Shown one piece after another: positions 2,670-40,565 of a DNA stretch of 64,000 nt; positions within the stretch are counted from its first letter, which is position 1; each line of letters opens with the position of its first letter. The notes beneath the pieces are model-generated. The model worked only from the letters and a program-made list of their open reading frames with translations, had not been told where the DNA came from and made no database searches. The position numbers were made by a program, and so were the translations under genes. This DNA is from a virus: IMG/VR virus record IMGVR_UViG_3300047476_002078, positions 168,802-232,801 of that record; one strand, 5' to 3'.

Positions 2670-3020
2670 TCACCTTAGTTGGTTTATTATAGCATCATCT
2701 GAAGTTTGCATCTCTTTTGAGTAGCTAATAGCTTTGTCATTTGTATCAATTATTTTTAAAACTTGCGATTTATTGTACTTAGGGTATTTCTTTAGTTCAG
2801 GTAGTGGATGTCCATATCCTCCAGCTTTGACAAAATCTTCAATGGAGTATGGGATGTATCCCTTTTCAATTATTTTTTTCTCTAATTTTTTAAACTTCTT
2901 TTCAAGAGAATCAAATCCTACAATCTCACCCATAAAAGAATAGCTGATAGCATCGCCAAAGTCTTCACCGACACTTATGTATTTCTTAATTAAAAAACTT
3001 TCAAAAAAATAGTGTAACAT
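2670..3020 (-). CDS. hypothetical protein (116 aa)
   Basis: 116 residues; the start overlaps the previous stop as TAATG. The sequence includes a Gly/Tyr/Pro-rich turn (FVKAGGYGHPLPELKKYPKY) between two helical parts. No family was recognised. It is coupled on both sides within the left-hand minus-strand cluster. Confidence 0.65.
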   Translation of the reverse strand: MLHYFFESFLIKKYISVGEDFGDAISYSFMGEIVGFDSLEKKFKKLEKKIIEKGYIPYSIEDFVKAGGYGHPLPELKKYPKYNKSQVLKIIDTNDKAISYSKEMQTSDDAIINQLR

Positions 3021-3718
3021 TATTTATCCAATGGTTTTTTTAAACTTGGGTCGTGTGGAAAAAAGTATCTTTTTAATTTTATCGGTTTAAGAGTTTTTGC
3101 ATCAAAAGTTATGCCCCAACCATATTGGTAAGGTTCGGTTTTCCAAGCATCATTATCGTCGTTTTCTGGGAACGGTAGAATGTTGGATAAAGCGTATTTT
3201 TCTACCGTGTCAGTTCTTGTTGTGACGAAATAAAAGTCTCTAAAGTTTTCATGCTTTTGACTTCCAAAATGCACACCAATACCTTGATTCGTTTGAATAG
3301 CTACACCTTCAGGCATTTTAGGTAGTTGATATATTCCAAAACACTCATCATAAACTTTTAAAACTTTAGTTTTAGATTCTAGCTGATATTTAATCATGTA
3401 GAAGTCAGAGAATTTTGAATTTTCGTTATGTGTCTCCGTAAATTCTTTTATTATGTTTAACGACGGAACACCTTTATAAACTAACGCAACAGTGTCTTCA
3501 AAATAAGTAATATTATCTGCTTTGGTCAATCCAATCATTTCCCAATTGTTAATGTCTGAATTAGGGAAATTAGTAAGAATTAAATTAACAAGTTCAACCA
3601 CTTCAGGAAGGTGTGCATGAATTCTGCCGTAAGTTTTCTCAACAACGCCTTTACTATCAAGAGTTACTTCTAAAGGGTTATTATTGATTCCGGGCATAAT
3701 GTCTTGAGTTGTTTCCAT
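3020..3718 (-). CDS. hypothetical protein (232 aa)
   Basis: The chosen ATG has a GGAGG ribosome site seven bases upstream; the longer open frame to 3769 would add 17 unlikely residues and lacks such a site. The product is 232 residues and soluble, with alternating helical and beta stretches and an aromatic C-terminal part (EPYQYGWGITFD...KRYFFPHDPS). No catalytic motif was recognised. It is probably the first gene of a transcript that runs down to RNase HII and beyond. Confidence 0.72.
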   Translation of the reverse strand: METTQDIMPGINNNPLEVTLDSKGVVEKTYGRIHAHLPEVVELVNLILTNFPNSDINNWEMIGLTKADNITYFEDTVALVYKGVPSLNIIKEFTETHNENSKFSDFYMIKYQLESKTKVLKVYDECFGIYQLPKMPEGVAIQTNQGIGVHFGSQKHENFRDFYFVTTRTDTVEKYALSNILPFPENDDNDAWKTEPYQYGWGITFDAKTLKPIKLKRYFFPHDPSLKKPLDK

Positions 3719-3816
3719 ACTTACCTCCGTTGTTGCTATTACGGTATTACATTTGTGAAAGCAATCCAAGGACTTAGTATGTCATATTTTACGGAAAGTA
3801 AACTCGCAACGTAATA

Positions 3817-4304: not shown

Positions 4305-4727
4305 ATGATTGCTCATGAAACAAACGTGCTATTGAATAGCGTTATAAACACTGTACGTAATTTAGATAATAAAAAATCTCAGTTAGGAGATCAAAGCTCT
4401 CTTTTTATTAAAAACATTACGCAAAAATTAAAATCAAATGAGATTCCTCCTGTGGAATTAGTTTTTACTCACTATGTAGAAGAACTTGGATGCGACATTG
4501 ATTTTTGGGTCAAATGGGATGGAAAAATATTCTTAACATCTTCTGATGGTAACGATGACTATTCTCCTATACTTGGACAAAAAATTCAAAGCCGATTTAA
4601 TTTTGTTAAGATGATTCCAGTAATATTAAAAGATATGGAAAATCATTTTTCAAACGAGTTGAAAGAAATGGATTTTTTTATAGAAGGTGCTGAAAGCGAA
4701 GATGAAGAAGATATAAACAGTCTTTAA
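4305..4727 (+). CDS. hypothetical acidic protein, isolated gene
   Basis: 140 residues from the ATG preceded by GGAGA at the right distance; upstream in-frame starts add 23 residues without a ribosome site. The C-terminus is strongly acidic (GAESEDEEDINSL). A central beta-type segment (GCDIDFWVKWDGKIFLTSS) has no recognised family. It is the only plus-strand gene between two minus-strand blocks, and it has a near-consensus promoter upstream and a hairpin terminator at its end, so it is probably expressed alone. Early expression of a small acidic host-takeover protein is possible but is inference. Confidence 0.7.
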   Translation: MIAHETNVLLNSVINTVRNLDNKKSQLGDQSSLFIKNITQKLKSNEIPPVELVFTHYVEELGCDIDFWVKWDGKIFLTSSDGNDDYSPILGQKIQSRFNFVKMIPVILKDMENHFSNELKEMDFFIEGAESEDEEDINSL

Positions 4728-5428
4728 TTTAGAGAGGGGATAGAATCCCCTCTCCTTATTTCTTTAAGCCTATTTTTCGTCAAAGTGTGTTCCACATATC
4801 CCAAATGGCAAAGTAAACTATACCTTTCTTTTTTAACTTTTAGTTCTTCGACTCTATGAAGTTTAGTAAAATCAAGATTATTTACAGTAACCATTACGCC
4901 GTGATTTGGTAAAATTTTATCAATCTCTTCCACTGTTTTTTCATCTATTCCACCGTATTTATTTAACTTAGCTTTCCCTATTCCTAAATACCCTCCGTCT
5001 GTTTCATAAAAAACGTCTTTAGTTAAATATAAAATATTTGTCATAAAAGTTGAATCGTAACTGTCGGAGTGCCATACCATACCTGAATTTTTTGCATAAT
5101 TATTTATCATTGGACTACCTTGAGAAAAGGGTCCGAAACAATCAGTAAACCATTTAAAATATTTTGAATTAGATAAGCCTTCCCAAAAATCTTTAAAAAT
5201 TTTTGGAGCTTCTTCATTATAGGATGTCAATGTGTGTGAAGCCTCCCACTTTGAAATTAAAGGAGCATCATATCCAGCGGAAGAATAGTAACCATCTCCT
5301 GTAACGTAAATTTGACTTCGTACTTGTTCTAAAAAATAATCAGCTACTTCGAGATCAATTCTTGTTACGGTGTAACCGTCTTTAAAGAATTTATGAATAT
5401 CAAAATTATCTTTTATTTGTAGTTTCAG
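4724..5428 (-). CDS. 2-oxoglutarate/Fe(II) oxygenase (CTG start proposed)
   Basis: Predicted to hydroxylate a protein or small molecule using iron, oxygen and 2-oxoglutarate. With the start proposed here, the facial triad is His120-x-Asp122 and His191, with the 2-oxoglutarate-binding Arg202 (WHSDS, LHRVE, KERYSLL). The open frame extends upstream past the first TTG (5230) for 66 more codons that align with the neighbouring paralogue (DIHKFFKDGYTVTRIDLEVA here, DLNDFFNKGYAVSKINVDIA there), but no ATG, GTG or TTG occurs in that stretch. A CTG at 5428 lies six bases after GGAG and overlaps the upstream stop as CTGA, giving 234 residues, near the paralogue's 245. Last gene of the radical SAM operon. 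Confidence 0.8.
   Translation of the reverse strand: MKLQIKDNFDIHKFFKDGYTVTRIDLEVADYFLEQVRSQIYVTGDGYYSSAGYDAPLISKWEASHTLTSYNEEAPKIFKDFWEGLSNSKYFKWFTDCFGPFSQGSPMINNYAKNSGMVWHSDSYDSTFMTNILYLTKDVFYETDGGYLGIGKAKLNKYGGIDEKTVEEIDKILPNHGVMVTVNNLDFTKLHRVEELKVKKERYSLLCHLGYVEHTLTKNRLKEIRRGDSIPSLN
4732..4754. terminator. hairpin terminator between convergent genes
   Basis: Perfect 10-bp stem GAGAGGGGAT / ATCCCCTCTC with a 3-base loop, followed on the plus strand by CTTATTTCTTT. It ends the isolated plus-strand gene. It sits inside the last codons of the convergent oxygenase gene, whose stop overlaps by four bases. Confidence 0.7.
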
Positions 5429-6162
5429 ATCATGCTCCAGTTTTTAGCTTTCAATGAATAAAGAACATTTGCTGAATAACCAAACTGGCATATCAAAGAA
5501 AATCTTTTTTTATTTGTTTTTAACGGTGGTACACGATGAACAAAATTAGGGTTTAAATTATTAGCTGTGACCATTACACCATGATTAGGCAAAATTTTTC
5601 CAGTAGGTATAACTTTCTCTTTTTCAATTTCTCCCGTGTATTCACAAACCCCAAACTCAACGTAACCTCCATCGCTTTCTGTGAATGTTTCTTCTGTGAG
5701 ATATATCATGTTGATTAAAAATGAAGCATCTCTAAAATCATAATGCCAGCTTAGACCATCATTTTTACTATATTTCATCATTTGTTTTGATAGCTGTGAA
5801 AAATCTCCGAAGTGTTGAGTTAGAGGTTTGAAATAATTCTCTTTAGATAAATTACTCCAGAAATCATTAAAATAAGGTTTATCATCTTCTACGAAACCCA
5901 TGCCCATTTGAGGTGAACTCAAATTTTCCCCTTCTGGAACAGTAAAAGGTGTTACACACTCACAATAAAAAAGTCCTGTGTCTGTGTGATAAACAGGATG
6001 CTCGTCAGAACTTATAACTGAAGGATAATTGAATTTTTGATTACGTATTTTTTTAAGTAAATTGTCAGCTATATCTACATTAATTTTGGATACAGCGTAA
6101 CCTTTATTAAAGAAATCATTAAGATCAATAGAGTCATTGAGTATTATCTGATTCTTTGTCAT
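5425..6162 (-). CDS. 2-oxoglutarate/Fe(II) oxygenase
   Basis: 245 residues, ATG start with a short AGG site. The core double-stranded beta-helix motifs are present: His140-x-Asp142 (SWHYDF), distal His209 (FVHRV) and Arg220 (KKRFSL), with the Gly-Gly of ESDGGY between them. The fold is like prolyl-4-hydroxylase-type enzymes. It is a tandem paralogue of the downstream gene and of the degenerate copy at 39047-39703. It shares a transcript with four radical SAM genes, so it may hydroxylate the same substrate; that link is inferred from context only. Confidence 0.85.
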   Translation of the reverse strand: MTKNQIILNDSIDLNDFFNKGYAVSKINVDIADNLLKKIRNQKFNYPSVISSDEHPVYHTDTGLFYCECVTPFTVPEGENLSSPQMGMGFVEDDKPYFNDFWSNLSKENYFKPLTQHFGDFSQLSKQMMKYSKNDGLSWHYDFRDASFLINMIYLTEETFTESDGGYVEFGVCEYTGEIEKEKVIPTGKILPNHGVMVTANNLNPNFVHRVPPLKTNKKRFSLICQFGYSANVLYSLKAKNWSMI

Positions 6163-6523
6163 GTATGCCTAAATGTATAATTAATTTTAAAATCATTTTG
6201 TTTTGTGATTCCATTCGATTGAGTAAAACTTTAATCTCGTCATTGGACATTTTGCTTACTTCATAATTGTACTTAGCCAATATCCTATCTTGTTCTCCTA
6301 GCTTCTTTTGAGACATTAGAATAAATGGGGCTGTATAAGCAGCTTGAAATGATAAAAATAAAGTTAAAAATAAAAATGGGTAAGGGTCTAATCTTAATAT
6401 TCCAAAATAGTTAAAAAACACCCAAGCAATAATGAATAGCGTTTGAAATATTACAAACTTCCAAGAGCCTACAAAATTGGTCACAAAATCAGCTAATTTA
6501 GACCATCTTTTTTTCCTATCCAT
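6134..6523 (-). CDS. DUF1003-type membrane protein
   Basis: 129 residues. Two membrane segments (about residues 22-41 and 48-70) surround the signature LDPYPFLFLTLFLSFQAAYTAP, followed by ILMSQKKLGEQDR and a charged helix, as in DUF1003 membrane proteins. The biochemical role of that family is not known to me. It overlaps the oxygenase gene by 29 bases and follows an AAAGGA ribosome site. Its place in the operon hints at anchoring or export at the membrane, but this is speculation. Confidence 0.8.
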   Translation of the reverse strand: MDRKKRWSKLADFVTNFVGSWKFVIFQTLFIIAWVFFNYFGILRLDPYPFLFLTLFLSFQAAYTAPFILMSQKKLGEQDRILAKYNYEVSKMSNDEIKVLLNRMESQNKMILKLIIHLGIHDKESDNTQ

Positions 6524-6532
6524 TTTTTCCTT

Positions 6533-7009
6533 TTACAATATTGATAAAACTTCATTTAGTTCCTTACCTATAAACATTTCTTTTTTAAAGTAATCAACTG
6601 TTGACTTTACTTGCGATGGTAAAAAGTAAGAGTCATTAATTACGTTTACAAGTACAGGAAACACTCTTATTAAAACTTCATCATATAGAGATTTGCTATC
6701 TTCAGAGTAAGGAACAAAATAAGGGTCATTTCCAAATAGCAATTCCGAGTCTGATAAGTTTTCATAATAATCAAGACCAAAGTATTTTGATATAAGGGAT
6801 GCGTAAACAATAGCTACCATAAAAGATTTTGCAGGATATTGAAGAAAAGTGACTTCTTCTTTGAAGTGCTTTTCAATATCTTCTACTATTTCTTGGAATG
6901 TGTAGAAATCTTTGACTAGGTAAATTTCCTCTTTTGATATGTCATAAATTGAGTCTGTTATGGGCTGGGTTTGATGATAAACTTTCTGTCGTAATTTGTG
7001 TTCTTTCAT
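6533..7009 (-). CDS. hypothetical protein in the radical SAM operon
   Basis: 158 residues, helical, rich in Tyr, Phe and Glu, with no Cys cluster or membrane segment. The ATG sits just after GGAGTGGT, so the 68-base overlap with the upstream radical SAM gene looks genuine. A weak resemblance to the N-terminal part of the 39687-40565 protein, which also follows an oxygenase paralogue, was seen by eye and needs a profile search. It could be a recognition or partner protein of the modification system. Confidence 0.65.
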   Translation of the reverse strand: MKEHKLRQKVYHQTQPITDSIYDISKEEIYLVKDFYTFQEIVEDIEKHFKEEVTFLQYPAKSFMVAIVYASLISKYFGLDYYENLSDSELLFGNDPYFVPYSEDSKSLYDEVLIRVFPVLVNVINDSYFLPSQVKSTVDYFKKEMFIGKELNEVLSIL

Positions 7010-7904
7010 ACCACTCCAATAAAAATTTAAACCCGTTGCAAGAATTTTCTAAACTTTTAACATCTCTATAATGTTCTGTTAGGCATGTTCCAAAATAATC
7101 ACATTTACTGCATATTTTGTTCTGTTTAACTTTTATTTTTTCATTTTCTCTCCATGTAAAATATTCTTCTATATTTTCCATTTCAACAAAATGTTCTCTA
7201 TCATCACTATCAAAATCTAAAATGCCAAATTTTCCTGAAGGTGTGATGTAAACGTGATTGTCAGAAAAAGCGTTTCGTTCTTTTTTTATACTCTCAACTA
7301 TGTTGAACTCATTAACGAATACAGACTTTAATTGTACTTTGTTATTCAAAAACTTTTTAATAAATTCTTCAAAGTCTTTAAAAGTAACATTTAAGCTATT
7401 GTATTGATTTGTGCTATACGGCTTAATTTCTACAGACTTTACATTTGAGATACTGTTTAATGTTTGAATCATATAATCAACATCAATATTTATGAGGCAT
7501 GGAGAAGCCAACATCAATACAGCAATATGCTTGTTAAGAGAAAGCATATTGCTTAAAGTATTTTTAAACCCTGATCTACATTCAAAATCAAAGGATACTG
7601 AAACATCAACGTCTTCTCTCATTAACACATCTGTAATTTTGGTAAGATTAGTTATGATGTTTATTTTTCCGCCATAATACTTTTTAATTATTAAGAAAAG
7701 TTCATCCAAGTATTCTTTAGAAAGTAACTGTATTTCTCCTCCGTACAAGTCTATATGTTCTATTTTTTCATATTGTGAAATTTGTTTTAAACGCAAATCA
7801 ATATCTTTTAGATCAGTTGTTTTTGGGTCACTTAATTTATCACCTAGATAACAAAAGGGGCATCTAAGATTGCAAAGATATGTCGGATTAAGAGACACAT
7901 TCAT
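6942..7904 (-). CDS. radical SAM protein with C-terminal Cys cluster (rSAM 1)
   Basis: 320 residues. The [4Fe-4S]/SAM-binding motif C-x3-C-x2-C lies at Cys11, Cys15 and Cys18 (CNLRCPFC), followed by the DLYGGE motif that contacts SAM. The C-terminal part carries ICSKCDYFGTCL and a further Cys (ENSCNG), which looks like a shortened SPASM/Twitch-type auxiliary cluster domain, usual in enzymes that modify peptides. Substrate not shown; the Cys-His-Ser-Ser protein in the same operon is the natural candidate. Start overlaps the upstream gene as ATGA. Confidence 0.88.
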   Translation of the reverse strand: MNVSLNPTYLCNLRCPFCYLGDKLSDPKTTDLKDIDLRLKQISQYEKIEHIDLYGGEIQLLSKEYLDELFLIIKKYYGGKINIITNLTKITDVLMREDVDVSVSFDFECRSGFKNTLSNMLSLNKHIAVLMLASPCLINIDVDYMIQTLNSISNVKSVEIKPYSTNQYNSLNVTFKDFEEFIKKFLNNKVQLKSVFVNEFNIVESIKKERNAFSDNHVYITPSGKFGILDFDSDDREHFVEMENIEEYFTWRENEKIKVKQNKICSKCDYFGTCLTEHYRDVKSLENSCNGFKFLLEWYERTQITTESLSSNPAHNRLNL

Positions 7905-9004
7905 GACTGTCCAATATCTTTAAAATATTCTTTAAAGTGCTCTTTAACATCGTCTTTAGCCGATGATAACTGTGATTCTAAGTCTTGTTTTACAGCCACA
8001 AGTTTAAGAATATCATCTGCGTTACCTTTCATTATTTTACAATGTTCCTCTACCAAACCAAGCTTTTTGTAATCTTTAATAGTTTTGTGACAGCCATTGC
8101 AAATATCAAACATTGGACAAGTAAGACATTCATCTTTCATCCTTTGTAATTCATAATGTTGCTTCAAAGGGGTAAAGAAATTACCTTGTTTTACTTCTTG
8201 ATCGAAATCAATTCTATACTTTCCTTCATCTTCAAAATCATCATCTCCAAAAGCTCCGCAAGAGTGATAAGCCCCATTAGGCTGAAGACATCGAATATGA
8301 CTGTCACACTCTCTTGCGAGAGGGCAAGTCGTTCCCATTTTTTTAATTCTGACAGTCATTTGTTTTGTGTTGTATTCCCAAGGAGCCAAACCTTCCTTAT
8401 ATACATCAAGATATATTTTGTATATTTTTCCTAAAAGAAAAGGTTTTGATTGGTCGCCTGAAGCCATGGCATAGTTAAGCTTACACTCAACTCCCATTTT
8501 CTTAGCTAATCTCACATTATCTATTGCAGTATCTTCGTTTTCTTCTGTGATTACAGATATAAATCCGGGGCGGTATCCAACTTTTTCAAGAAATAAATCA
8601 GACACTTTCCAAAAAATATCCTCTGTGAAAACTTTGTTTTTTGTTATACGTCTAGTGTTTCCATAGTTAAAAGATGTGGCTACGCTTACCCTGTCTTGCC
8701 TTTTAAAAAGTTTTGTCCATTTATCAGGGTACTTATAAAAATCCCATAAATTTGTAGTGAAAGAAACTATAGCTGGATATTTGTTATCATCTAAATGTTT
8801 CACTAGCTCCCAATAATAATCAGGGTGGATTACAAGAGGGTCGCCTCCGTTCACAATAATTGTTCTGGTATCTGGAAATCTTTTTAAGAAATCCACAATA
8901 TATTGCATTGGCAGTATTTGTTTTTTATCTTCTGAAATGTTGGTAGAGCTACAGAAAGTACAGGCAAAATTACAAACTTCTGTAGGTTTAATAATTAAGT
9001 CCAC
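7901..9004 (-). CDS. radical SAM/SPASM protein (rSAM 2)
   Basis: 367 residues from a GTG that overlaps the previous gene by 10 bases; a later start would lose the cluster motif, so the GTG must be right. C-x3-C-x2-C is at Cys11, Cys15 and Cys18 (CNFACTFC), with VNGGDP as the SAM-contact motif. The C-terminal half has many cysteines (CPLARECDSHIRCLQPNG, YHSCGAF, CLTCPMFDICNGCHK, EEHCK), a full SPASM-type arrangement for auxiliary iron-sulfur clusters. Ends in a charged helical tail of about 40 residues. Expected to act on a peptide or protein, with partner enzymes in the operon. Confidence 0.9.
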   Translation of the reverse strand: MDLIIKPTEVCNFACTFCSSTNISEDKKQILPMQYIVDFLKRFPDTRTIIVNGGDPLVIHPDYYWELVKHLDDNKYPAIVSFTTNLWDFYKYPDKWTKLFKRQDRVSVATSFNYGNTRRITKNKVFTEDIFWKVSDLFLEKVGYRPGFISVITEENEDTAIDNVRLAKKMGVECKLNYAMASGDQSKPFLLGKIYKIYLDVYKEGLAPWEYNTKQMTVRIKKMGTTCPLARECDSHIRCLQPNGAYHSCGAFGDDDFEDEGKYRIDFDQEVKQGNFFTPLKQHYELQRMKDECLTCPMFDICNGCHKTIKDYKKLGLVEEHCKIMKGNADDILKLVAVKQDLESQLSSAKDDVKEHFKEYFKDIGQS

Positions 9005-10110
9005 TTTTTATCTATCTCCCTAAACATTATTTTATAAAGACATTCTGACAGTTGTTTTCTTTCTGCAAAATAAACATGATCTTCCATCACAAAACAAGAA
9101 AATCCACATCTTCCAAAAAACTCACAACTTAAACACTCTTTTTTTGTAACAAAAGATTCGATAATATTGGCATTACTTTCATAATTGATTTTATGTTCAA
9201 ATTCGCTAGGGTTGTATTGGAGTTGTCTGCAAGTTAAAATTCTACCGTTAGGAAGAATCGTAATTTTGTTCAAACTCATACAGGTCATCTGGTTTACATC
9301 ATTTTCAATCCACTGTTTTATTGGCTGAATTTCTGGAAATTCATTAATAACTTTAAGCAAGAAATCCAAAATGTCTTTGTCTGAAGGTACTAGCAATTGA
9401 GCGTTAGTTTCAGGGGTGTAATAATCGAAACTTATAGGAAAACCTTCATCATACAAGTATTTAAAGTAACTTGTATCAGAATTTAAAAACTTTTCGATAG
9501 TAGGTTTGGTCAAAACTAAATTAATAGTTCCTATATGCTTTTTAAATTTTATTATGTTTTTATGCCATAAGGTATTAACGTGATGAGCTACTGCTCGACC
9601 ATGAAAATCAAGAGAGGTTGTAATGCAAAATTCTATATTATTATTTTCTAATTTATTTAAAAACTCTTCAACTTTTTCTACTTCAGTAAAAAGACAATTT
9701 GTAACTAAAACAATATTGGCTTGTTTATTTAGTGTTTTAGCATGTGAATCAACTTTTTTTATCAATTCAAAATAGTCATCAAATTTGTTTCTTCCATCTT
9801 GAAAAATTTCTCCGCCCATTAGACAGATATTAAAACGAGTGCAAGAATTATCACTGATAAATTGATTGATAGGTTCAGCTTTTTCAATAATTTCTTCAAG
9901 ACCTGTGGTATCATCGTGATCTTGCCAGCAAAAAGCACAACGTAAATTGCAAGCTTGAAAAAGACTTACTTCTACTTCTGCTTCAGAAGGAACTTTAGTT
10001 CGTAATAAAGACTTTATGTAATTTTCATCAACAGGACTTTGAAGTTTTGATTCCTTAAACTCTTGATAAGTTTTAGGTCCTTCTGTCACTATTGGAATTT
10101 TTTTCTTCAT
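8995..10110 (-). CDS. radical SAM/SPASM protein (rSAM 3)
   Basis: 371 residues. Unlike the two downstream copies it has an N-terminal extension of about 50 residues before the C-x3-C-x2-C motif (Cys54, Cys58, Cys61: CNLRCAFC); LMGGEIF follows. The SPASM region shows MTCMSLNKITILPNGRILTC and ECLSCEFFGRCGFSC with a final Cys (SECLY). The extension could hold a peptide-recognition element, which is inference. The start overlaps the Cys-rich small gene by 38 bases, with GGGGAAAA upstream as a distant ribosome site. Confidence 0.9.
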   Translation of the reverse strand: MKKKIPIVTEGPKTYQEFKESKLQSPVDENYIKSLLRTKVPSEAEVEVSLFQACNLRCAFCWQDHDDTTGLEEIIEKAEPINQFISDNSCTRFNICLMGGEIFQDGRNKFDDYFELIKKVDSHAKTLNKQANIVLVTNCLFTEVEKVEEFLNKLENNNIEFCITTSLDFHGRAVAHHVNTLWHKNIIKFKKHIGTINLVLTKPTIEKFLNSDTSYFKYLYDEGFPISFDYYTPETNAQLLVPSDKDILDFLLKVINEFPEIQPIKQWIENDVNQMTCMSLNKITILPNGRILTCRQLQYNPSEFEHKINYESNANIIESFVTKKECLSCEFFGRCGFSCFVMEDHVYFAERKQLSECLYKIMFREIDKKWT

Positions 10111-10285
10111 CTAAATATTTTCCCCACTTACCAATGGGACATTCGCTATTTTTAAGTCTGGCTTTTACAACCATGAAACAGCCACACTTTCCGCAAACAT
10201 CCATCTTTAACGGTTGCTTTAATTCTGGACAAGCTCTACAAATACCTATTCGATATTCGTAATTTTCTTCATCAACAAAAATCAA
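10073..10285 (-). CDS. small Cys-rich protein (DUF6171-like)
   Basis: 70 residues. Cysteines are arranged as CRAC, then CGKCGC, then ECPIGKW, which matches small phage metal-binding proteins of the DUF6171 kind (recognised by eye). It probably binds zinc or an iron-sulfur cluster. The start is TTG, six bases after AAGG and overlapping the preceding stop as TTGA. It lies between the radical SAM genes and the substrate-like gene. A scaffold or electron-transfer partner role is possible but not shown. Confidence 0.75.
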   Translation of the reverse strand: MIFVDEENYEYRIGICRACPELKQPLKMDVCGKCGCFMVVKARLKNSECPIGKWGKYLDEEKNSNSDRRT

Positions 10286-11067
10286 ACAATACCTTCGGAT
10301 ACCACAGCTTCATCAATTTTTTGTTCAATTAACGAAAGCTCTTGGCTCACTTTAGCAATCATATCAGGAGTAATATCCCCATTTGCTAAAGCGTCTATAC
10401 CTAAACATAAAGGGTTTTTTGAATTTAAAATATAATGAGTGAGCATTAATCCTTTAAAAGCCCCTTCCTCAAACTGCATCTTGAACCATTTCAAAGGGTG
10501 TTTACTAGGCTTACTTACAAACGCCTCAATGAATCCTTCAATTTGGATTACATTCAGTACATTAACTGTGATATACATAGCATCATTTACTTCTTCAAAT
10601 TCATCCAATGATATTTGAGGGTCGAAGGCTCGGACATACAAAAGCAAAATAGAATCTAAAAAAGTTGCCCACTTCTCCACCACTTCAGGATATTTGGCAA
10701 TAAATTCAGGTATTTCTTCATTGGATAAAACACTCTTTTCGATGACACTAATATGATCTACCTCTTTATAAAAAAGCATTATGTGTGCAATTGTTTGTGA
10801 AAGAGGTATAGATGCGTTGAAAGCTCTTAGTTTCATAAAAGCTGCTATAAAATCGTGTTTTTCAACTGTCGATGTTTCTGATAAATCAAAATCTGGATTT
10901 AACTCTAGGTTTGCTAGATATGTTAAAAGCTGATCTCCTTTTATTGAACTATTTGCATAATCCACAGTGTATTTAATTTTTTCTCTATTCATGAAAACTT
11001 CTTTCATGAGATCAACACTTAAAGGAATTGTTACACGTCTTTCAATAAATTCTACATTTGTTTCCAT
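10282..11067 (-). CDS. unknown protein of the radical SAM operon
   Basis: 261 residues from the ATG that follows AGGAG at five bases; it begins two bases after the stop of the Cys-His-Ser-Ser gene, and the ribosome site lies inside that gene's last codons. A longer open frame upstream (27 residues of VHAT-type repeats) is only the repeat read in another frame. The protein is helical and acidic, has no Cys cluster, and matches no family I know. Immediately adjacent, coupled expression with the putative substrate suggests a chaperone-like or recognition partner. Confidence 0.75.
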   Translation of the reverse strand: METNVEFIERRVTIPLSVDLMKEVFMNREKIKYTVDYANSSIKGDQLLTYLANLELNPDFDLSETSTVEKHDFIAAFMKLRAFNASIPLSQTIAHIMLFYKEVDHISVIEKSVLSNEEIPEFIAKYPEVVEKWATFLDSILLLYVRAFDPQISLDEFEEVNDAMYITVNVLNVIQIEGFIEAFVSKPSKHPLKWFKMQFEEGAFKGLMLTHYILNSKNPLCLGIDALANGDITPDMIAKVSQELSLIEQKIDEAVVSEGIV

Positions 11068-11068
11068 T

Positions 11069-11626
11069 TTATCTCCTAGCTCTACTGCTATGGCATGAAC
11101 TGTGGCATGAACTGTGGCATGAGCTATGACATGAACAGTGACACCCATCTTGTGTTATACAAGCGACTCTGTAAGCCGCACCTTCTGAAAGGTCAGCGAT
11201 ATTCTTTAAAGTAGTAACAAAGTTATTCAAAGCTGTAGCTGATACTACCCCTTGAGGTCCGGGCGTTGTATCTATTTGAGAAGTTAAAGCGGAAACATAG
11301 TAAGCACTTGTTAAAGCAGCAACACGGATACCATTATATACTGAGTAGTTTCCACACGAAGGATTGTATCTTCCCGACTCTAGCTGTCTGATTCTAGTTG
11401 ATTCTTTGGCAAAATTTCTAATTTGCGTAATTACTTCATTAGCCGTTAAAACCGAACTCAGATTACTTTCGCCCATGGGAGTTAATTGTGTGTCCAAAGT
11501 ACCACAATTAGGTTCGATGGAAGAATCTGTCCACCAAACAACTCTACTATTTTTGGGTGTAACTATATCATTATTAACATCGTTGATTATACCTGCTTTG
11601 GTAATAATCGTTCCTTGAATAGCCAT
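11069..11626 (-). CDS. putative modified protein with C-terminal Cys-His-Ser-Ser repeats
   Basis: 185 residues. Residues 1-158 are an unfamiliar Ser/Thr/Asn/Ala-rich domain with two isolated Cys near residues 41 and 91. Residues 160-181 read DGCHCS and then CHSS four times, ending in RARR. A four-residue Cys repeat at the C-terminus is the hallmark of targets of the CXXX-repeat radical SAM maturases, and each unit also contains a His-x-Ser as in the His-Xaa-Ser system. The gene lies directly downstream of one radical SAM gene and upstream of three more, so it is the likely substrate. The N-terminal domain is far longer than a normal leader peptide; it may be a virion or carrier domain. Alternatively the tail simply binds metal. 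Confidence 0.8.
   Translation of the reverse strand: MAIQGTIITKAGIINDVNNDIVTPKNSRVVWWTDSSIEPNCGTLDTQLTPMGESNLSSVLTANEVITQIRNFAKESTRIRQLESGRYNPSCGNYSVYNGIRVAALTSAYYVSALTSQIDTTPGPQGVVSATALNNFVTTLKNIADLSEGAAYRVACITQDGCHCSCHSSCHSSCHSSCHSSRARR
11084..11143 (-). repeat. 12-base tandem repeat encoding Cys-His-Ser-Ser units
   Basis: About four tandem 12-base units, two of them identical at the DNA level (TGGCATGAACTG on the plus strand), the others differing at synonymous positions. The synonymous variation argues for selection on the protein repeat rather than recent duplication alone. Unit number could vary by slippage in whole codons. Confidence 0.85.
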
Positions 11627-11635
11627 TAAAAACTC

Positions 11636-12721
11636 CTACTCTTGCCCGATGAAACCGTTTAAAACAGTTCTCATAAGGGTTGCATCTCCATAAGGAAATT
11701 CTTTATTATATTTAAGCTTTTGCATTAAAGTTTTAGGAGCAGGGCAAACATCTCCATCCCAAGCTAGTTGGTGACAATCCCCATTACAAATATCGAAAAC
11801 ATCGCATCCATAACAGCCCGGATTTCTAACTGCTTCACAAGCAATTTCCTTCATTCTTCCTTTTGAATACATGATTTCCAGAATTGGATAGTCTATGTAT
11901 CCATAAGGTTTTTCGACCGCAGAATTTGGACACCCTCCAACAGTTCCGTCAGCATTGAGTGTGAATATTTTTTGCTCACATGTTCTGCACCGACATCCGC
12001 TGTGGGTACTGTGAACTAAAGGTGAGAGGATAGAATTGAAAAATAAATTTTGAATTTTTTCATGATATTTATTCTCTATCGTCTGTTCCCACATCTTTAG
12101 AAAATAGTCTTGTAAATTTTTGTTTCCTGCGGCTAGATCATTATTACTTCTAGCGTTACCATTTGGAGTCATTCTTTCAAAATTAAGATAAGTGACTCCT
12201 AAATCAATCATTTTTTCTATGATTTGTTTTGGCTCTAATTCAAGAGTTTTAGAAGTAAGTGAAACCATAACTGTAACAGGGTATCCAAGCTTAACAAGAG
12301 TTCGGACATTATTCTCCCACAGTTCTTCAGCCTTTCTATTCGGAAATCTGATTTTATAATCCCATGAAGTTCCAAAGCTGTTTCTTTTTAACACCTCATC
12401 GAAAAAAGCAATTTTAGCATCATCCAGTCTGTAGGTTAGGTTGGTTTGAATACCCCACCAAACCTCATCCCAAAGAGGGCTTACCTCTCTGTAAACTTTT
12501 AGCATATCTTCAATAGGAGCAAGCATAGGCTCTCCTCCGTGAAAGGATATGTGTCCACCTTTTTTAAAATTAGGAACGACTTCTTTTAATCTCTTGAAAA
12601 AACTAATAGTTTTATCTGGATTAAAAAATACTTTTTTGCCTTGAGAGCCGCTGGTGAAGCAATGCTCACAGTTTAACTGACATGTTTCTGTTGTTTTTAA
12701 ATATACCATCAACTCATTCAT
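11636..12721 (-). CDS. radical SAM/SPASM protein, anSME-like (rSAM 4)
   Basis: 361 residues. Cluster motif at Cys14, Cys18 and Cys21 (CQLNCEHC), SAM motif SFHGGEP, and a Cys-rich SPASM region (SGCRCRTCEQ, GGCPNS, GCYGCDVFDICNGDCHQ, DVCPAP). This layout is close to anaerobic sulfatase-maturase-like peptide-modifying enzymes. A GAGAGG ribosome site precedes the ATG. It is the first gene of the modification operon and ends 10 bases before the start of the Cys-His-Ser-Ser protein, which makes it the prime candidate for the dedicated maturase. Confidence 0.9.
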   Translation of the reverse strand: MNELMVYLKTTETCQLNCEHCFTSGSQGKKVFFNPDKTISFFKRLKEVVPNFKKGGHISFHGGEPMLAPIEDMLKVYREVSPLWDEVWWGIQTNLTYRLDDAKIAFFDEVLKRNSFGTSWDYKIRFPNRKAEELWENNVRTLVKLGYPVTVMVSLTSKTLELEPKQIIEKMIDLGVTYLNFERMTPNGNARSNNDLAAGNKNLQDYFLKMWEQTIENKYHEKIQNLFFNSILSPLVHSTHSGCRCRTCEQKIFTLNADGTVGGCPNSAVEKPYGYIDYPILEIMYSKGRMKEIACEAVRNPGCYGCDVFDICNGDCHQLAWDGDVCPAPKTLMQKLKYNKEFPYGDATLMRTVLNGFIGQE

Positions 12722-22813: not shown

Positions 22814-23467
22814 ATGTCAAACGATAAAAAATATAAAGAAATAGATTTAGATAATATCGAAAATGATGATGATTTAAAAAGAAAGGCTGAAGCTCTGATC
22901 GAGCAAGAAGTCTCTAAAAACTCCTCTTATACTTCAAGCTACAGTCAACCTATTATACCTACAACAATACACGGCTCAGTACCTTCCCCTTCACAAAAAA
23001 TTGATGCTGATAAATACAAAAGCGAAAAAACTAACTTTATCGTGGAGGATAATCTTTTAAAGATGATACGTGAAGGTTCCAACAGCTTTGCTTTGCTAGA
23101 TAAAGTGATTGAAGAGATAGCCGAAGAATCAGCCAGTTTAAAATTTGATCGTAATTTCAGTGAAAGCCTTTTCGCTTTAGCTGGAGAGAACACTAAAGTT
23201 TCAAAAGCTAGAGCACAAATTCTGAAAACAATTGGTGATCTTCTTGTTACTAAGAGGGAGCTTGCAAAAAACGATGTTATTAATTTGAAGGGCAAGAGGA
23301 TGCAAGCAGTCTTCAAATATTTTATGACAGTCATCAAAACATCCATAGATCAAACTGAATCAATACTTCCAGAGCAAAAAGAACTTTTTTGGTCTAACCT
23401 GCAAAAGAATTTAGTTGATTTTGAAGAAAACGCTGAAAAAGTTATGTCAAAAGTAGAGGAAGAATGA
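22814..23467 (+). CDS. putative terminase small subunit or packaging accessory
   Basis: 217 residues, AGGAG ribosome site, and ATGA overlap with terminase large subunit. The N-terminal 80 residues are acidic and disordered (DLDNIENDDDLKRK, then Ser/Pro/Tyr). The rest is helical (about residues 85-215) with basic patches (KVSKARAQILKTIGDLLVTK). Position and helical layout suit a small terminase, but no HTH motif is convincing, so the call is from context. Confidence 0.6.
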   Translation: MSNDKKYKEIDLDNIENDDDLKRKAEALIEQEVSKNSSYTSSYSQPIIPTTIHGSVPSPSQKIDADKYKSEKTNFIVEDNLLKMIREGSNSFALLDKVIEEIAEESASLKFDRNFSESLFALAGENTKVSKARAQILKTIGDLLVTKRELAKNDVINLKGKRMQAVFKYFMTVIKTSIDQTESILPEQKELFWSNLQKNLVDFEENAEKVMSKVEEE

Positions 23468-26181
23468 GCATTGCAAATTTAGCAGGTTCTTTCATCCAGC
23501 AAAATGATGATGGAAGAGTTGCAGACATTATTACTTTTTGTGAGGCTCCTTGGGGTTTAAATATGAACCTCAAGACAGGTAACACAACTTTAAGACCTGT
23601 TCAAAAATTAGTAATGAAGTGTTACTACAATCTTGAACTTGATAATAAAGAAAAATCAATTATCGTTCGAGACTTCTTGAACGAAGAAGAAAAATACAGA
23701 TTCACAGAACAAGAATATCTTCACTTCCTTTATAACGAAGGAAGAACAAACATAAAAGAAGTTGGAAGTAAGTTAAGAAACGAATTAGTTTTAGTGGCTG
23801 GTCGAAGGGGAGGAAAATGCCTCAAAGAAGGAACGCTTATTTTAACTCCCAAAGGTCCTGTAGAAATTGAAAAAATTAAAGCAGGCGACACAGTTTATGG
23901 ATACAATGCAGATGGTTCAGTAAGCCCTACTAAAGTTTTGAATGTAGCCGATCAAGGTATTCAAGAAGTTGTTGATTTAACTTCAGGTACAGAAGTTATT
24001 CAAACTTGTACATTTAATCACAAATGGTTGACTATAGATGAAATAAACGACAAAAAAACTGAAAAAACACCTTCAACTTTTTGTAAAAGAGAGGGGAATC
24101 AGTATGCAAATATTGTAAGAAAAATAATTAAAATACCTTGTGGAGATGTTGAAGAGTCTCATGCTTATGGTATCGGAAAATATCCGTGGGGAAAAATTGT
24201 AGATTTAGATGTCGTTAAAAAATGGAATCGTGAGTCTTTGTTAAATTTTTTAGCAGGTTTTCTTGATACTGATGGAAGCGTAAGCGTTTCAGAAAATACA
24301 ATTTCAATAGAATTTTTTTGTCAATCAAAGTCGATTCTTGAAGCAGTAGATTACGCTTTTTTAACTTTGTTCCAATATAAACTTAATTGGAGCATTGATA
24401 AACGAGATGTAAATGAAACTGTTTATCGACTAAGAATGAAAAACAATTTTTTTGCTAAAGCCGCTTTGCGTGAACTTAATGATTATTTGGTTAATCCTGC
24501 AAGAAAATGGAAACCTGAATATGAATCATTTTTGGAAAATAACTCTAATCCTTATTATGTCGGAGTAAAATTAGGTAAAAAATATGAAGCTAGAACTTAT
24601 GATATTGAAGTAGATAATGAAACAAGTCTTTATGTTTTAGCAAACCAAGGATTAGTAACACACAATAGTAAATTAGGTGCTATTGTTTCTGCTTACGAGG
24701 CATACAGCTTAATTAAAAAACAACATCCTCAAAGAGCTTACGGTCTTACAGACAACGCTGAGATTTATCTTACAACCGTTGCAACATCCACAGAGCAGGC
24801 GGAACTCCTCTTTAATGATATTGCTGCTTATATAGACAGTTCTCAATTTTTTAACCGCTACAAGAATGACCCTACTCTTCAGTTCATGAAGTTGAGATCA
24901 CCTTATGATATTGAAAATAGCGGTCAAGATGGTCGAACTTCAATCATTATTAAAGCCGCTCCGTGTTCCGGTCGAGGTCTTCGTGGTATGGCAAACATTG
25001 TTATTATCATGGATGAGCAAGCCCACTTTATTGATTCTTCTACCAACAAATCTGACGCTGCTATTTATGAAGCTGTAACACCTTCAACTCTTTCATTTGG
25101 TAAAGATGCTAGAATTTTAAATATTAGTTCTCCTCTTAACAAACAGGGAAAACTTTGGGAATTATACAACGCATCATTTCAATCTGAAAAGATTTTAATG
25201 TTTCAAATACCGACGTGGGAACTTTACCCTCAAGTTGACTCCTCTGAATTAAGAGAAAGATACCGCCGAAATCCAGATGTATATTGGTGTGAAATTGGAG
25301 CAAAATTTTCTGATACCGTAAAATCTTGGATGCCTGTTGAACAGTTGGTAAAATGTATAGAGCCTACCCTCAAGCCAAAGCTTAGAGGTCTTCCAAAAAC
25401 GGAACACTTTATGGGGATTGATATAGGTCTTAAAAAAGACCAAACTGCCATAACTGTTCTTCATGTTGAAAACAAGAGAGAGCCTGTTTTCAATGTAAAC
25501 GGTCAATTAATTGACGAAATCATAGTTCCAAAATACGAGCTTGATTACCAAGAGGTTTTACAAGCAGGCGTTGGTAAACACGTAGGTAGAGAGTTTTTAG
25601 ATTTCGATAATATCGCTGACAGGATTGAAAGTGTCTGTAAAGATTTTATGGTCGTGAAAGGTTTATTTGACCAATATAACGGCGTTCCTTTGATGCAATC
25701 TCTCCAGAAAAAAGGATTGAACCAGTTTTCTATGGTGTATTTTGACCGTAGATTCAATTCAGAACTTTACAATAATTTTATGCTTCAAGTCATTGATGGG
25801 AAATTAGTTTTATTCGACGACCCTGAATCAAGTCAGCCCTTGGCTGAAGGTAAGCATGGACCTTTTATTTCTGAAATAATTGACCTTCAGAGTGAATTTA
25901 TATCAAAATATATTACACAGGTGTTTGCTCCCGAAATTGAAGGTAAGCACGATGACCGCTCTGACTCATTTGTTCGAGCTTTGTGGTGTGCGACGGAATG
26001 GCTTACAAAAAATAAAGATAATTCGGGGCAGTTTTTACCGTCTTTGCAATTTACGGAAAATGGTAATTCTTCAGGTATGCAAGCAAGGAAGCATAGACCT
26101 TACATGAATCAAAGAGTTGGAACGTCTAACAATAGAGCTAGTCCATACTCCGTGTTTTTTAATAAGAGAGGAAGGCGTTGA
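23464..26181 (+). CDS. terL: terminase large subunit with intein
   Basis: 905 residues as encoded, about 622 after removal of a 283-residue intein (residues 119-401). The ATPase Walker A is split: GRRGGK precedes the intein and S-K-L-G-A follows, giving GRRGGKS on splicing. Walker B is NIVIIMDEQAHF. The nuclease domain shows GIDIGLKKDQTAI, LFDQYNG and HDDRSDSFVRALW, consistent with the metal-binding acidic residues. The enzyme cuts concatemeric DNA and powers packaging into the prohead. Activity requires splicing, because the phosphate-binding loop is interrupted. A GAGGA ribosome site precedes ATG, and the portal lies 360 bases downstream. Confidence 0.95.
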   Translation: MSIANLAGSFIQQNDDGRVADIITFCEAPWGLNMNLKTGNTTLRPVQKLVMKCYYNLELDNKEKSIIVRDFLNEEEKYRFTEQEYLHFLYNEGRTNIKEVGSKLRNELVLVAGRRGGKCLKEGTLILTPKGPVEIEKIKAGDTVYGYNADGSVSPTKVLNVADQGIQEVVDLTSGTEVIQTCTFNHKWLTIDEINDKKTEKTPSTFCKREGNQYANIVRKIIKIPCGDVEESHAYGIGKYPWGKIVDLDVVKKWNRESLLNFLAGFLDTDGSVSVSENTISIEFFCQSKSILEAVDYAFLTLFQYKLNWSIDKRDVNETVYRLRMKNNFFAKAALRELNDYLVNPARKWKPEYESFLENNSNPYYVGVKLGKKYEARTYDIEVDNETSLYVLANQGLVTHNSKLGAIVSAYEAYSLIKKQHPQRAYGLTDNAEIYLTTVATSTEQAELLFNDIAAYIDSSQFFNRYKNDPTLQFMKLRSPYDIENSGQDGRTSIIIKAAPCSGRGLRGMANIVIIMDEQAHFIDSSTNKSDAAIYEAVTPSTLSFGKDARILNISSPLNKQGKLWELYNASFQSEKILMFQIPTWELYPQVDSSELRERYRRNPDVYWCEIGAKFSDTVKSWMPVEQLVKCIEPTLKPKLRGLPKTEHFMGIDIGLKKDQTAITVLHVENKREPVFNVNGQLIDEIIVPKYELDYQEVLQAGVGKHVGREFLDFDNIADRIESVCKDFMVVKGLFDQYNGVPLMQSLQKKGLNQFSMVYFDRRFNSELYNNFMLQVIDGKLVLFDDPESSQPLAEGKHGPFISEIIDLQSEFISKYITQVFAPEIEGKHDDRSDSFVRALWCATEWLTKNKDNSGQFLPSLQFTENGNSSGMQARKHRPYMNQRVGTSNNRASPYSVFFNKRGRR
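23818..24666 (+). mobile_element. intein in the terminase Walker A motif, single DOD motif
   Basis: 283 residues. Splicing motifs: Cys1 with CLKEGTLILTPKGPVEIEKI (block A), TCTFNHKWLT (block B with the T-x-x-H), and the C-terminal YDIEVDNETSLYVLANQGL followed by VTHN, with Ser as the +1 residue. One LAGLIDADG-type motif, LAGFLDTDGS, lies near the middle, but the second motif expected for an active DOD homing endonuclease was not found, so homing is probably degenerate. The ends are exact by motif and restore GRRGGKS. Confidence 0.92.
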
Positions 26182-39046: not shown

Positions 39047-39703
39047 ATGGATAAAATGAATCTTTCAGACTATTTTCATAAAGGTTACACATCTACGAAT
39101 ATTCCAGAAGTAGAAGAACTTTTGCCTTTTTTGAGAAGCCAAAAATGGCACACTGTTGAAAATAGTTATCAGGAATTTGCTGAAGGTAATACTTTTACTT
39201 TACCTTTGTCTGCGGATTGGGACTTCAAATCTCATCAAAACAAAATACCTTCGTCGCTGTATGAGGCTATTAAAGATTTAGCCAGTTCTGGTTACTACGA
39301 ATGGTTTACTCAAATATATGGCAATTTTACTCAAATTACCGTAATGCTTACAAAAATGGAAAAGGGTTCGGGATACGATTGGTATCAAGACACAAAACTT
39401 GGTGCTTTTAATGGAAACCTTTTATTTATTACGCCAGAAGTTTTTGATGAATCTGACGGTGGAGAAATTTCTTTAGGTATATGTGACTCTTCCCCAACAG
39501 GAAAACCTTTGTCTGATACAGTCATACCTCTTGAACATTTTATTCCTACGAACGGACTTATGATTACCAACTATAACATTAACCCGAATGTTATAAGAAA
39601 AATAAACCCATTAAAAACAGACAAGGAGCTTTATATCCTTCATTTTTATCTAGGCTATGTTGAAAATACGCTTATGAAGGAAATGAATGTTTCACATAGT
39701 TAA
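39047..39703 (+). CDS. degenerate 2-oxoglutarate oxygenase paralogue
   Basis: 218 residues, AGAGG ribosome site. It aligns along its length with the oxygenases at 4724-5428 and 5425-6162 (MNLSDYFHKGYTSTNIPEVE; FDESDGGEISLG; HFYLGYVENTL). The catalytic residues are replaced: Tyr113 for the first His (DWYQD, Asp115 kept), Ile183 for the distal His, and Leu195 for the Arg. It is thus probably inactive as an iron enzyme and may act as a binding or scaffold partner, or it may be a decaying copy. Confidence 0.82.
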   Translation: MDKMNLSDYFHKGYTSTNIPEVEELLPFLRSQKWHTVENSYQEFAEGNTFTLPLSADWDFKSHQNKIPSSLYEAIKDLASSGYYEWFTQIYGNFTQITVMLTKMEKGSGYDWYQDTKLGAFNGNLLFITPEVFDESDGGEISLGICDSSPTGKPLSDTVIPLEHFIPTNGLMITNYNINPNVIRKINPLKTDKELYILHFYLGYVENTLMKEMNVSHS

Positions 39704-40565
39704 TGACTGTTATCTGGATTTAATAGGTTCACCAAAAAAAGAAAATTGTAAGGTAGTACAACTTTTAACTTTTGAAGATAGTTCATTTTTCAAAAGTATT
39801 GAAGATATAAAAGAAAAAGTTTGTTTTCACTTGTCTAGCAATGATCTTTGTTTTGCTATCGTGTGTTTTTTAAAAGAAGTTTACCCAAGTATTCCAAAAG
39901 AAGAAATTAAAAATCTTTATGATTTAACAATTGAAAGGTTTGTCATTCAAATTTCTTTAATAAACAATCAAGACTATAGCTCTTTAAAAAATAAAAATTT
40001 TAATACTATGTATGAACAAGCGGTTGTTCATAAATCAGTAAATAAAAATTTAATAGGTGTTGAATATTTGATTGGTAATTTTTTTGCACATACAGGTTTT
40101 TATGGTGCAGAAAATTATCCAAATCGAAATGTTTTAGTTAATAGATTAAAAAAGTTTTTCGATGACTCAAAGTATAAAACTGTAGATGAGATAAAAAAAG
40201 AATTAATCTATAAAATAGACCGTATTGATAAAAGTATAATCCCTTTACTTACAAAAGATAAATTGAGCAACTTTGAAATTAAAACTCTTTCCAACACTTT
40301 TGCTAGTTTTTATAAAAAGTATGCGGAAGGTTATTCAAGTAAATACCAAGAACTATCAACTTTGAATGATTTTCTTTTATCTGTAGAGGAAGCTGAAATT
40401 GAAGATGAAGGTTATTTAAAATTCTTATTAAAAGATGTTAAAAGACCTCATAGCATACTGTTTTGCACTCATACCTATATCAATAAAGTTAATCTTTTTT
40501 TAATCAATTATTTTTATGATTCTTTTCTGAATAAAGGTATCGCAAACAGGCACTACTTCTTATAA
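39687..40565 (+). CDS. hypothetical protein next to the oxygenase paralogue
   Basis: 292 residues; it overlaps the oxygenase paralogue by 17 bases, with AAGGA just before the ATG. Mainly helical with Lys/Asn/Leu/Phe-rich composition; no catalytic motif. A weak N-terminal likeness to the 6533-7009 protein was noted by eye. The stop is followed by a strong hairpin. Confidence 0.65.
   Translation: MFHIVNDCYLDLIGSPKKENCKVVQLLTFEDSSFFKSIEDIKEKVCFHLSSNDLCFAIVCFLKEVYPSIPKEEIKNLYDLTIERFVIQISLINNQDYSSLKNKNFNTMYEQAVVHKSVNKNLIGVEYLIGNFFAHTGFYGAENYPNRNVLVNRLKKFFDDSKYKTVDEIKKELIYKIDRIDKSIIPLLTKDKLSNFEIKTLSNTFASFYKKYAEGYSSKYQELSTLNDFLLSVEEAEIEDEGYLKFLLKDVKRPHSILFCTHTYINKVNLFLINYFYDSFLNKGIANRHYFL

Follow-up and report, generated by a model that had tools for sequence, protein, structure and literature searches.

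A radical SAM and oxygenase operon with a repeat-tailed candidate substrate in bacteriophages and Bdellovibrionota

A protein ending in a run of Cys-His repeats is encoded among radical S-adenosylmethionine (SAM) enzymes in hundreds of bacteriophages and in some Bdellovibrionota. The system is described here from a window of 64,000 nucleotides (the whole stretch analysed; positions 168,802 to 232,801 of the 355,874-bp phage record IMGVR_UViG_3300047476_002078), in which an operon runs on the minus strand from 12721 down to 4724. It comprises four radical SAM genes (rSAM1 to rSAM4), two 2-oxoglutarate (2OG)-Fe(II) oxygenases, a DUF1003 protein, a DUF6171 protein, two unknowns (unk260 and p137) and a 185-aa repeat-tailed protein, hereafter the precursor. 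Judging from the sequences, we put at roughly two in three (about 0.68) the probability that radical SAM chemistry here modifies a protein, on the virion or a fibre, with which host or prey is recognised. Within this reading, the tail is very probably the substrate of the enzymes, and a place of the modified protein on the virion or a fibre, in recognition, is favoured by a narrower margin.

A C-terminal tail linked to rSAM1

The window precursor ends in ...QDGCHCSCHSSCHSSCHSSCHSSRARR, that is, GCHCS-(CHSS)4-RARR*. An earlier note, made from the letters of the window alone, had described a C-terminal run of four Cys-His-Ser-Ser units; these four are present, but the tail actually holds five CH units, one CHCS and four CHSS, and then RARR. 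It is the sole CHxxCH-coding site detected in the 355,874-bp record, and a record-wide profile search found four Radical_SAM matches, all inside the operon.

Direct searches (tblastn in phages and peptide patterns in IMG/VR) returned no relatives of the window precursor because its body diverges and its tail is of low complexity. This problem was solved by describing the tail as a degenerate DNA pattern, which, run over IMG/VR and 84,980 species genomes, matched at least 120 stretches in IMG/VR and 19 in the species genomes, where a rough estimate, with low-complexity DNA not counted, gives about 0.5 chance matches. Nearly all open reading frames (ORFs) with CHxxCHxxCHxxRxRR in the viral and genome contigs (167/172) terminate exactly at the motif; the remaining five look like low-complexity chance matches. 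In all, 182 distinct proteins with C-terminal CH-repeat tails were found.

The linkage also emerges when the motif plays no part in the retrieval. An rSAM1 alignment alone fetched 377 IMG/VR relatives, of which 80 were kept. Downstream of rSAM1, an ORF with a CH-repeat C-terminus ends within 0.5-2.3 kb in 72 of these 80 loci, and the other eight have merely 4-1,281 nt of sequence left. In one of the eight (L195, with 1,281 nt) a precursor might have been expected. Among all 3,107 ORFs of the 80 loci, 75 carry a CH-repeat tail; they fall in the same number of loci, 72, three of which hold two, and all are precursors. The pairing of tail and rSAM1 is thus near one-to-one, in phages as in bacteria. 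Similarly, the gene directly after rSAM1 is repeat-tailed in all five cultured jumbo-phage regions opened, with the ends CHTSCHASCHSSRSRR in Phosso, CHSSCHASCHNSRSRR in Atu_ph07, CHSSCHTSCHGSRGRR in FLC6 and SURPRISE13, and CHTSCHTSCHSARGRR in DT01. Because the tail is so steadily paired with these enzymes, many of whose closest named kin are peptide maturases, it is the likely substrate.

The tail is far better conserved than the protein that carries it. Among 88 non-redundant precursors of the (CHxS)n-RxRR class, the positions that define the class (C-16, H-15, C-12, H-11, C-8, H-7, R-4, R-2 and R-1) are unvarying in 88/88 while the body diverges. Ser, which lies outside the class definition, occupies position -13 in 81/88, -9 in 79/88 and -5 in 82/88. 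An alignment of 80 precursors has only six invariant columns, namely the Cys and His columns of three units in a row. Other terminal classes exist. The tails of a freshwater-phage class end in CHSNCHGSCHGS[IL] in place of RxRR, a further viral variant ends in CHSSCHSSHSSRNRR, and Bdellovibrionota variants read CHSSHSSHSSHSSRGRR, in which Cys is substituted, and CHSNHCSHSNHGSRGRR. These variants suggest that His-x-Ser is close to the shared element and show that RxRR can be lost. One phage precursor (L122:7832-8512) has many CH units, in several blocks separated by NVPV/NVV spacers.

An AlphaFold model of the window precursor (mean predicted local distance difference test score, pLDDT, 79; predicted template modelling score 0.73) is mostly confident over the body and of low confidence over the tail. 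The modelled body has no match in the PDB by fold search. Against predicted viral structures, its best matches include a 296-aa protein of phage Atu_ph07 (E=3e-4), identifiable as gp170 from its length and the phage it comes from; on these models, the fold is common to different phages.

The operon and its enzymes

The features of the window operon are as follows (aa, amino acids; all on the minus strand).

11636..12721, minus: rSAM1, radical SAM/SPASM, 361 aa, hallmark enzyme of the system (CxxxCxxC and SPASM-type Cys)
11069..11626, minus: precursor, substrate candidate, 185 aa, folded body and disordered C-terminal repeat tail as predicted (AlphaFold and fold match)
11084..11143, minus: core CHCS-CHSS-CHSS-CHSS-CHSS, five CH units, residues 162-181 (C and H of three units invariant)
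11072..11083, minus: C-terminal RARR (RxRR) motif (R-4, R-2 and R-1 fixed in 88/88 of the class)
10282..11067, minus: unk260, partner protein, usually adjoining the precursor (phrog_20767, E=1e-37)
10073..10285, minus: small Cys-rich protein, DUF6171 (PF19668, E=1.7e-7; phrog_13558)
8995..10110, minus: rSAM2, radical SAM with SPASM-type Cys (conserved Cys; seen in 58 loci)
7901..9004, minus: rSAM3, radical SAM with SPASM-type Cys (PF04055, E=5e-10)
6942..7904, minus: rSAM4, radical SAM with a shorter C-terminal Cys set (PF04055, E=3e-10)
6533..7009, minus: p137, small conserved helper; ORF limits given, overlapping the end of rSAM4 (phrog_20737, E=3e-26)
6134..6523, minus: DUF1003 membrane protein, accessory (PF06210, E=7.5e-28)
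5425..6162, minus: 2OG-Fe(II) oxygenase, first (PF13640, E=6e-5; homologs in related operons)
4724..5420, minus: 2OG-Fe(II) oxygenase, last (PF13661, E=6e-6)

The inventory in the earlier note holds up well: all the genes it listed are present, co-oriented and overlapping or nearly so, the oxygenases match 2OG-FeII_Oxy_3/4, the DUF1003-type assignment agrees with Pfam, and the small Cys-rich protein is of the DUF6171 family. The four proteins it had called radical SAM all match PF04055 and contain CxxxCxxC, the Cys of which are kept in each family. It had also credited three of them with full SPASM-type Cys clusters, and rSAM1-3 indeed have seven to eight conserved C-terminal Cys of the auxiliary-cluster type (rSAM1: 245, 248, 264, 303, 306, 312, 316 and 326; rSAM2: 277, 294, 326, 329, 335, 339 and 357; rSAM3: 227, 233, 249, 293, 296, 302, 305 and 322). 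In rSAM4 just four are conserved (C265, C268, C274 and C289). An alignment of 15 diverse rSAM1 orthologs leaves CxxxCxxC and the eight SPASM-type Cys invariant, and rSAM3 is ~43-67% identical to its orthologs. Matches to the SPASM model TIGR04085 stay below its cut-off, at about 20 bits versus 27. Phosso has an extra lone rSAM2-like gene (L002:23606-24523) ~4 kb past its operon.

What these enzymes act on can be approached through their relatives. The nearest named families of rSAM1 are the peptide or protein maturases CbpB, anSME and DarE, all far below cut-off, and rSAM2-4 also match mixed families, again far below cut-off. The earlier note had named tRNA and cofactor enzymes as the assignment that would undo its claim; in profile searches no operon protein reaches the cut-off of any such family. 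The closest solved structures by sequence profile, the radical SAM domain protein 5wgg and the anSME 4k37, belong to the same superfamily but are distant (E about 1e-7 to 1e-9), and the known examples use other substrates. Could the tail instead be an unmodified Cys/His metal-binding motif, with the enzymes directed at something else, for instance a host molecule or a tail fibre? CH pairs could bind metal directly, and Cys is replaced in some tails (CHSSHSSHSSHSSRGRR). This explanation is nonetheless unlikely, given the near one-to-one linkage of tail and rSAM1 in phages and bacteria and the largely peptide-modifying kin of the enzymes. Furthermore, the HxS repeats that remain after loss of Cys point to an HxS substrate and not to a Cys-based metal site.

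An AlphaFold model of unk260 has a pLDDT of 86.5, and a fold search with it found no PDB match. The precursor (phrog_35144, 71/80 members), unk260 (phrog_20767), p137 (phrog_20737) and the radical SAMs (phrog_1802) all belong to PHROGs annotated as function unknown or merely as radical SAM. The DUF1003 protein is not conserved in the system, with a single BLAST match in a searched set that included the window itself. The frame of the last oxygenase extends without a stop to about 5420, yet no ATG, GTG or TTG occurs before 5230, so that the gene is longer than the ORF these codons define; by eye, the frame at 5230-5420 resembles the N-terminus of the neighbouring oxygenase, and an unusual start codon such as CTG may be used. 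Near the operon, a 249-aa ORF (window 3020-3769) has homologs near the same system in Phosso (L002 19506), Atu_ph07 (L003 23298) and a Bdellovibrionaceae contig (L231 8409), and it may be an extra component.

Occurrence and gene order

The earlier note had treated the operon as a single elaborate case, a view that does not survive: the system is widespread in phages. In the cultured-phage collection, rSAM1 and unk260 occur together in only seven records, all of jumbo phages, namely Agrobacterium Atu_ph07 (two), Sinorhizobium Phosso, Burkholderia FLC6, FLC8 and SURPRISE13, and Pseudomonas pPa_SNUABM_DT01. A search of that collection for precursors of marine phages found none. The order rSAM1-precursor-unk260-rSAM2-rSAM3-rSAM4-p137 recurs widely, including in jumbo phages of Agrobacterium, Sinorhizobium, Burkholderia and Pseudomonas. 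Among 102 loci surveyed, unk260 is found in 80 (some of these loci being truncated) and rSAM2 in 58, and p137 follows rSAM4 in many complete operons. Four loci (L032, L053, L068 and L115) depart from this layout, with two tandem short precursors of about 130 aa and the enzymes several kb off.

Around this set the additions vary. A cupin is present in 47/102 loci (JmjC_2-like above cut-off in one case), a B12-binding radical SAM nearest the KedN5 methyltransferase family in 23/102 and a PF13759-type 2OG oxygenase in 22/102, along with further unnamed families. Hydroxylation of the core by the cupin and oxygenases is conceivable on the model of JmjC histidine hydroxylases. In papers on the Burkholderia phages, radical SAM, cupin and oxygenase genes are named but given no role (PMC11898562, PMC8066314). 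For phage phiRP31, of which virion data are deposited (PXD006355), ORFs 72 and 73 have been annotated by its authors as radical SAM and Fe-S oxidoreductase genes. The openly licensed PMC literature (preprints lay outside the scope) yielded no description of the tail motif or of a phage radical SAM/RiPP system of this type (RiPP, ribosomally synthesized and post-translationally modified peptide), and no curated family was found that describes it.

Virion and tail-fibre context in phages

A virion protein had been suggested in the earlier note as the carrier of the modification, and the phage neighbourhoods lend this idea weight. About half of the loci have, upstream of the operon, a gene of the chaperone-type tail-fibre kind (Peptidase_G2), one for a virion protein of phrog_473 and a large phage gene (phrog_358). 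More specific is the case of Atu_ph07, whose virions were analysed by electrospray ionization tandem mass spectrometry, which defined the clusters of coding sequences (CDS) 31-76, 170-215 and 284-329 (PMC6102473). The numbering of the Atu_ph07 record matches that paper at glutaredoxin gp266, polymerases gp276/277 and nudix gp257, so the second virion cluster, 170-215, begins with the precursor, gp170. This position is a strong hint that the precursor is a virion protein. Pelagimyophages have radical SAM cassettes within the host recognition cluster, unexplained there (PMC7029224), which may correspond to the present system.

Copies in Bdellovibrionota

Bdellovibrio-type bacteria are predators of other bacteria. 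The same module occurs in Bdellovibrionota chromosomes amid genes for thiolase, acyl-CoA dehydrogenase, hydroxyacyl-CoA dehydrogenase and AMP-ligase, and in one family of the phylum 8/95 genomes have an rSAM1 match at E<=1e-60. The earlier note had inferred a complete virus-borne system; several radical SAMs paired with a repeat-tailed candidate are indeed found, but not in viruses only. Phage contamination is an unlikely source of the contigs read because two large contigs have metabolic-gene flanks and no member of the tested sheath family was found in those genomes. An rSAM1 tree intermixes phage and bacterial copies and places the window copy in a clade with some from bacteria. It gives no support for one single transfer between the two, since at least four label changes are forced on well-supported branches (the bootstrap not being fully settled). 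The system has been exchanged between phages and Bdellovibrionota.

Five Bdellovibrionota genomes encode, near the system, a protein that contains the Peptidase_S74 chaperone domain; three of these proteins also match the pilin-type N_methyl family of Pfam. In four of the five genomes, the S74 fibre is accompanied by a conserved partner of 184-209 aa with no Pfam match where tested:

L228:17698-18324, L230:10929-11525, L249:1563-2153 and L250:19154-19705: 184-209-aa partner of the pilin-like S74 fibre

The precursors scanned matched no Pfam family, S74 included. The S74-class MAT fibres of B. bacteriovorus are located on the predator surface and have been implicated in prey recognition (PMC10769870). 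Like them, the neighbours of the system carry the S74 chaperone domain; MATs are reported with a signal peptide, whereas these neighbours start pilin-type, and the term 'radical SAM' is absent from the main text of that paper (PMC10769870).

Relation to known repeat-modification systems

Membership of the CXXX-repeat or His-Xaa-Ser systems, to which the earlier note had likened the operon, finds no backing in curated models, all of which are far below cut-off. The His-Xaa-Ser system (HxsA with the radical SAM proteins HxsB and HxsC; TIGR03979, TIGR03978 and TIGR03977) likewise sets repeated His-x-Ser beside several radical SAMs, and the tail WCHSSHSSHSSHSSRGRR from Bdellovibrionota consists of HxS repeats only and weakly matches HxsA (E=0.008). 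Unlike that system, the present one has Cys before His in nearly all tails, an RxRR end, a folded body and usually at least three radical SAMs together with oxygenases. Operon proteins miss the HxsB and HxsC cut-offs (30.2 versus 370 and 27 versus 267.9 bits), as do those of a Bdellovibrionota locus (23.6 and 28.9 bits). HxsA does not match the window protein and gives 16.1 versus 121.65 bits for the most HxS-like tail. The CXXX-repeat target and maturase (TIGR04117 and TIGR04115) share one Cys every four residues and an adjoining SPASM-type maturase; here, His and Ser are fixed besides Cys and the context is that of virions, and the models are missed at 13.7 versus 50 and 19.4 versus 350 bits, respectively. 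In its presumed working the system resembles both, yet by these scores it is a form of radical SAM protein maturation separate from either.

With maturase genes beside a precursor of conserved core, the operon has the arrangement by which RiPP clusters are recognized. The C-terminal peptide might then be modified, cleaved and released as a bacteriocin-like or signalling product, with the body as a large leader. A repeat core at the extreme C-terminus next to several radical SAM/SPASM maturases resembles such clusters, and the basic RxRR end is a possible processing or follower signal. Yet the recurrent genes with Pfam or PHROG names include no dedicated leader peptidase and no transporter or exporter (many genes are without a family match), the precursor body is a predicted folded domain common to different phages, gp170 heads a virion cluster, and the position is that of the tail module. 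A released peptide is therefore improbable. Least probable of all is an injected or early-acting virion protein whose modified tail disturbs host defence or physiology: virion association would fit an internal or ejected protein equally, but the position in tail-fibre and host-recognition clusters and the surface-type fibres near the Bdellovibrionota copies speak for the exterior.

A putative modified recognition protein

We therefore prefer modification of a recognition protein, for which the operon would be a self-contained system. The radical SAM/SPASM enzymes rSAM1-3, rSAM4 and the variable oxygenases would act on the C-terminal (C)HxS units of a small folded protein and introduce cross-links or other C-H modifications, with unk260 and p137 probably assisting in substrate handling. 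The product would be a virion protein associated with the tail or a fibre, and its chemically altered tip may aid in recognising or holding the host surface. The copies in Bdellovibrionota probably serve a pilin-like S74 fibre. Three observations fit a place on the virion or fibre: the position of gp170, the neighbouring tail-fibre genes in phages and the S74 fibres in bacteria.

Several points weigh against this reading. The tail modification is a prediction from the genes, and the enzymes could act on a different target. The precursor body has no solved relative, so nothing in its modelled fold points to an adhesin, and detection of gp170 itself in virions is inferred from the cluster boundary. 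Moreover, the window operon does not itself adjoin a tail gene, and several Bdellovibrionota loci have no fibre gene in the stretch read.

A bolder and more tentative proposal, which we hold somewhat less likely to be true than false, is an undescribed class of protein modification common to tailed phages and Bdellovibrionota. At the tip of a recognition protein, several radical SAMs and oxygenases would remodel the (C)HxS repeats to form a cross-linked group, which may bind metal or mimic a receptor and with which the virion or predator would dock on Gram-negative cells. Accounts of how phages recognise their hosts usually invoke nothing beyond protein folds. Multi-enzyme post-translational finishing of a virion protein, if true, would be new chemistry for virus particles and, to our knowledge, would make this the first virion component produced by radical SAM chemistry. 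It would also account for the puzzling radical SAM cassettes of marine and jumbo phages, some in host-recognition regions, and connect phage docking with the prey docking of Bdellovibrio-type bacteria. Several new radical SAM enzymes come with an obvious candidate substrate, and the pairing can be tested directly in cultured phages.

Other open reading frames of the window

At 39047-40565, on the plus strand and distant from the operon, a third 2OG-oxygenase-like ORF is followed by a 292-aa unknown. A 905-aa terminase-like ORF at 23464-26181 contains, by eye, an intein-looking stretch (CLKEGTLILTPKGPVEIEKIKAGDTVYGY ... LVTHN).

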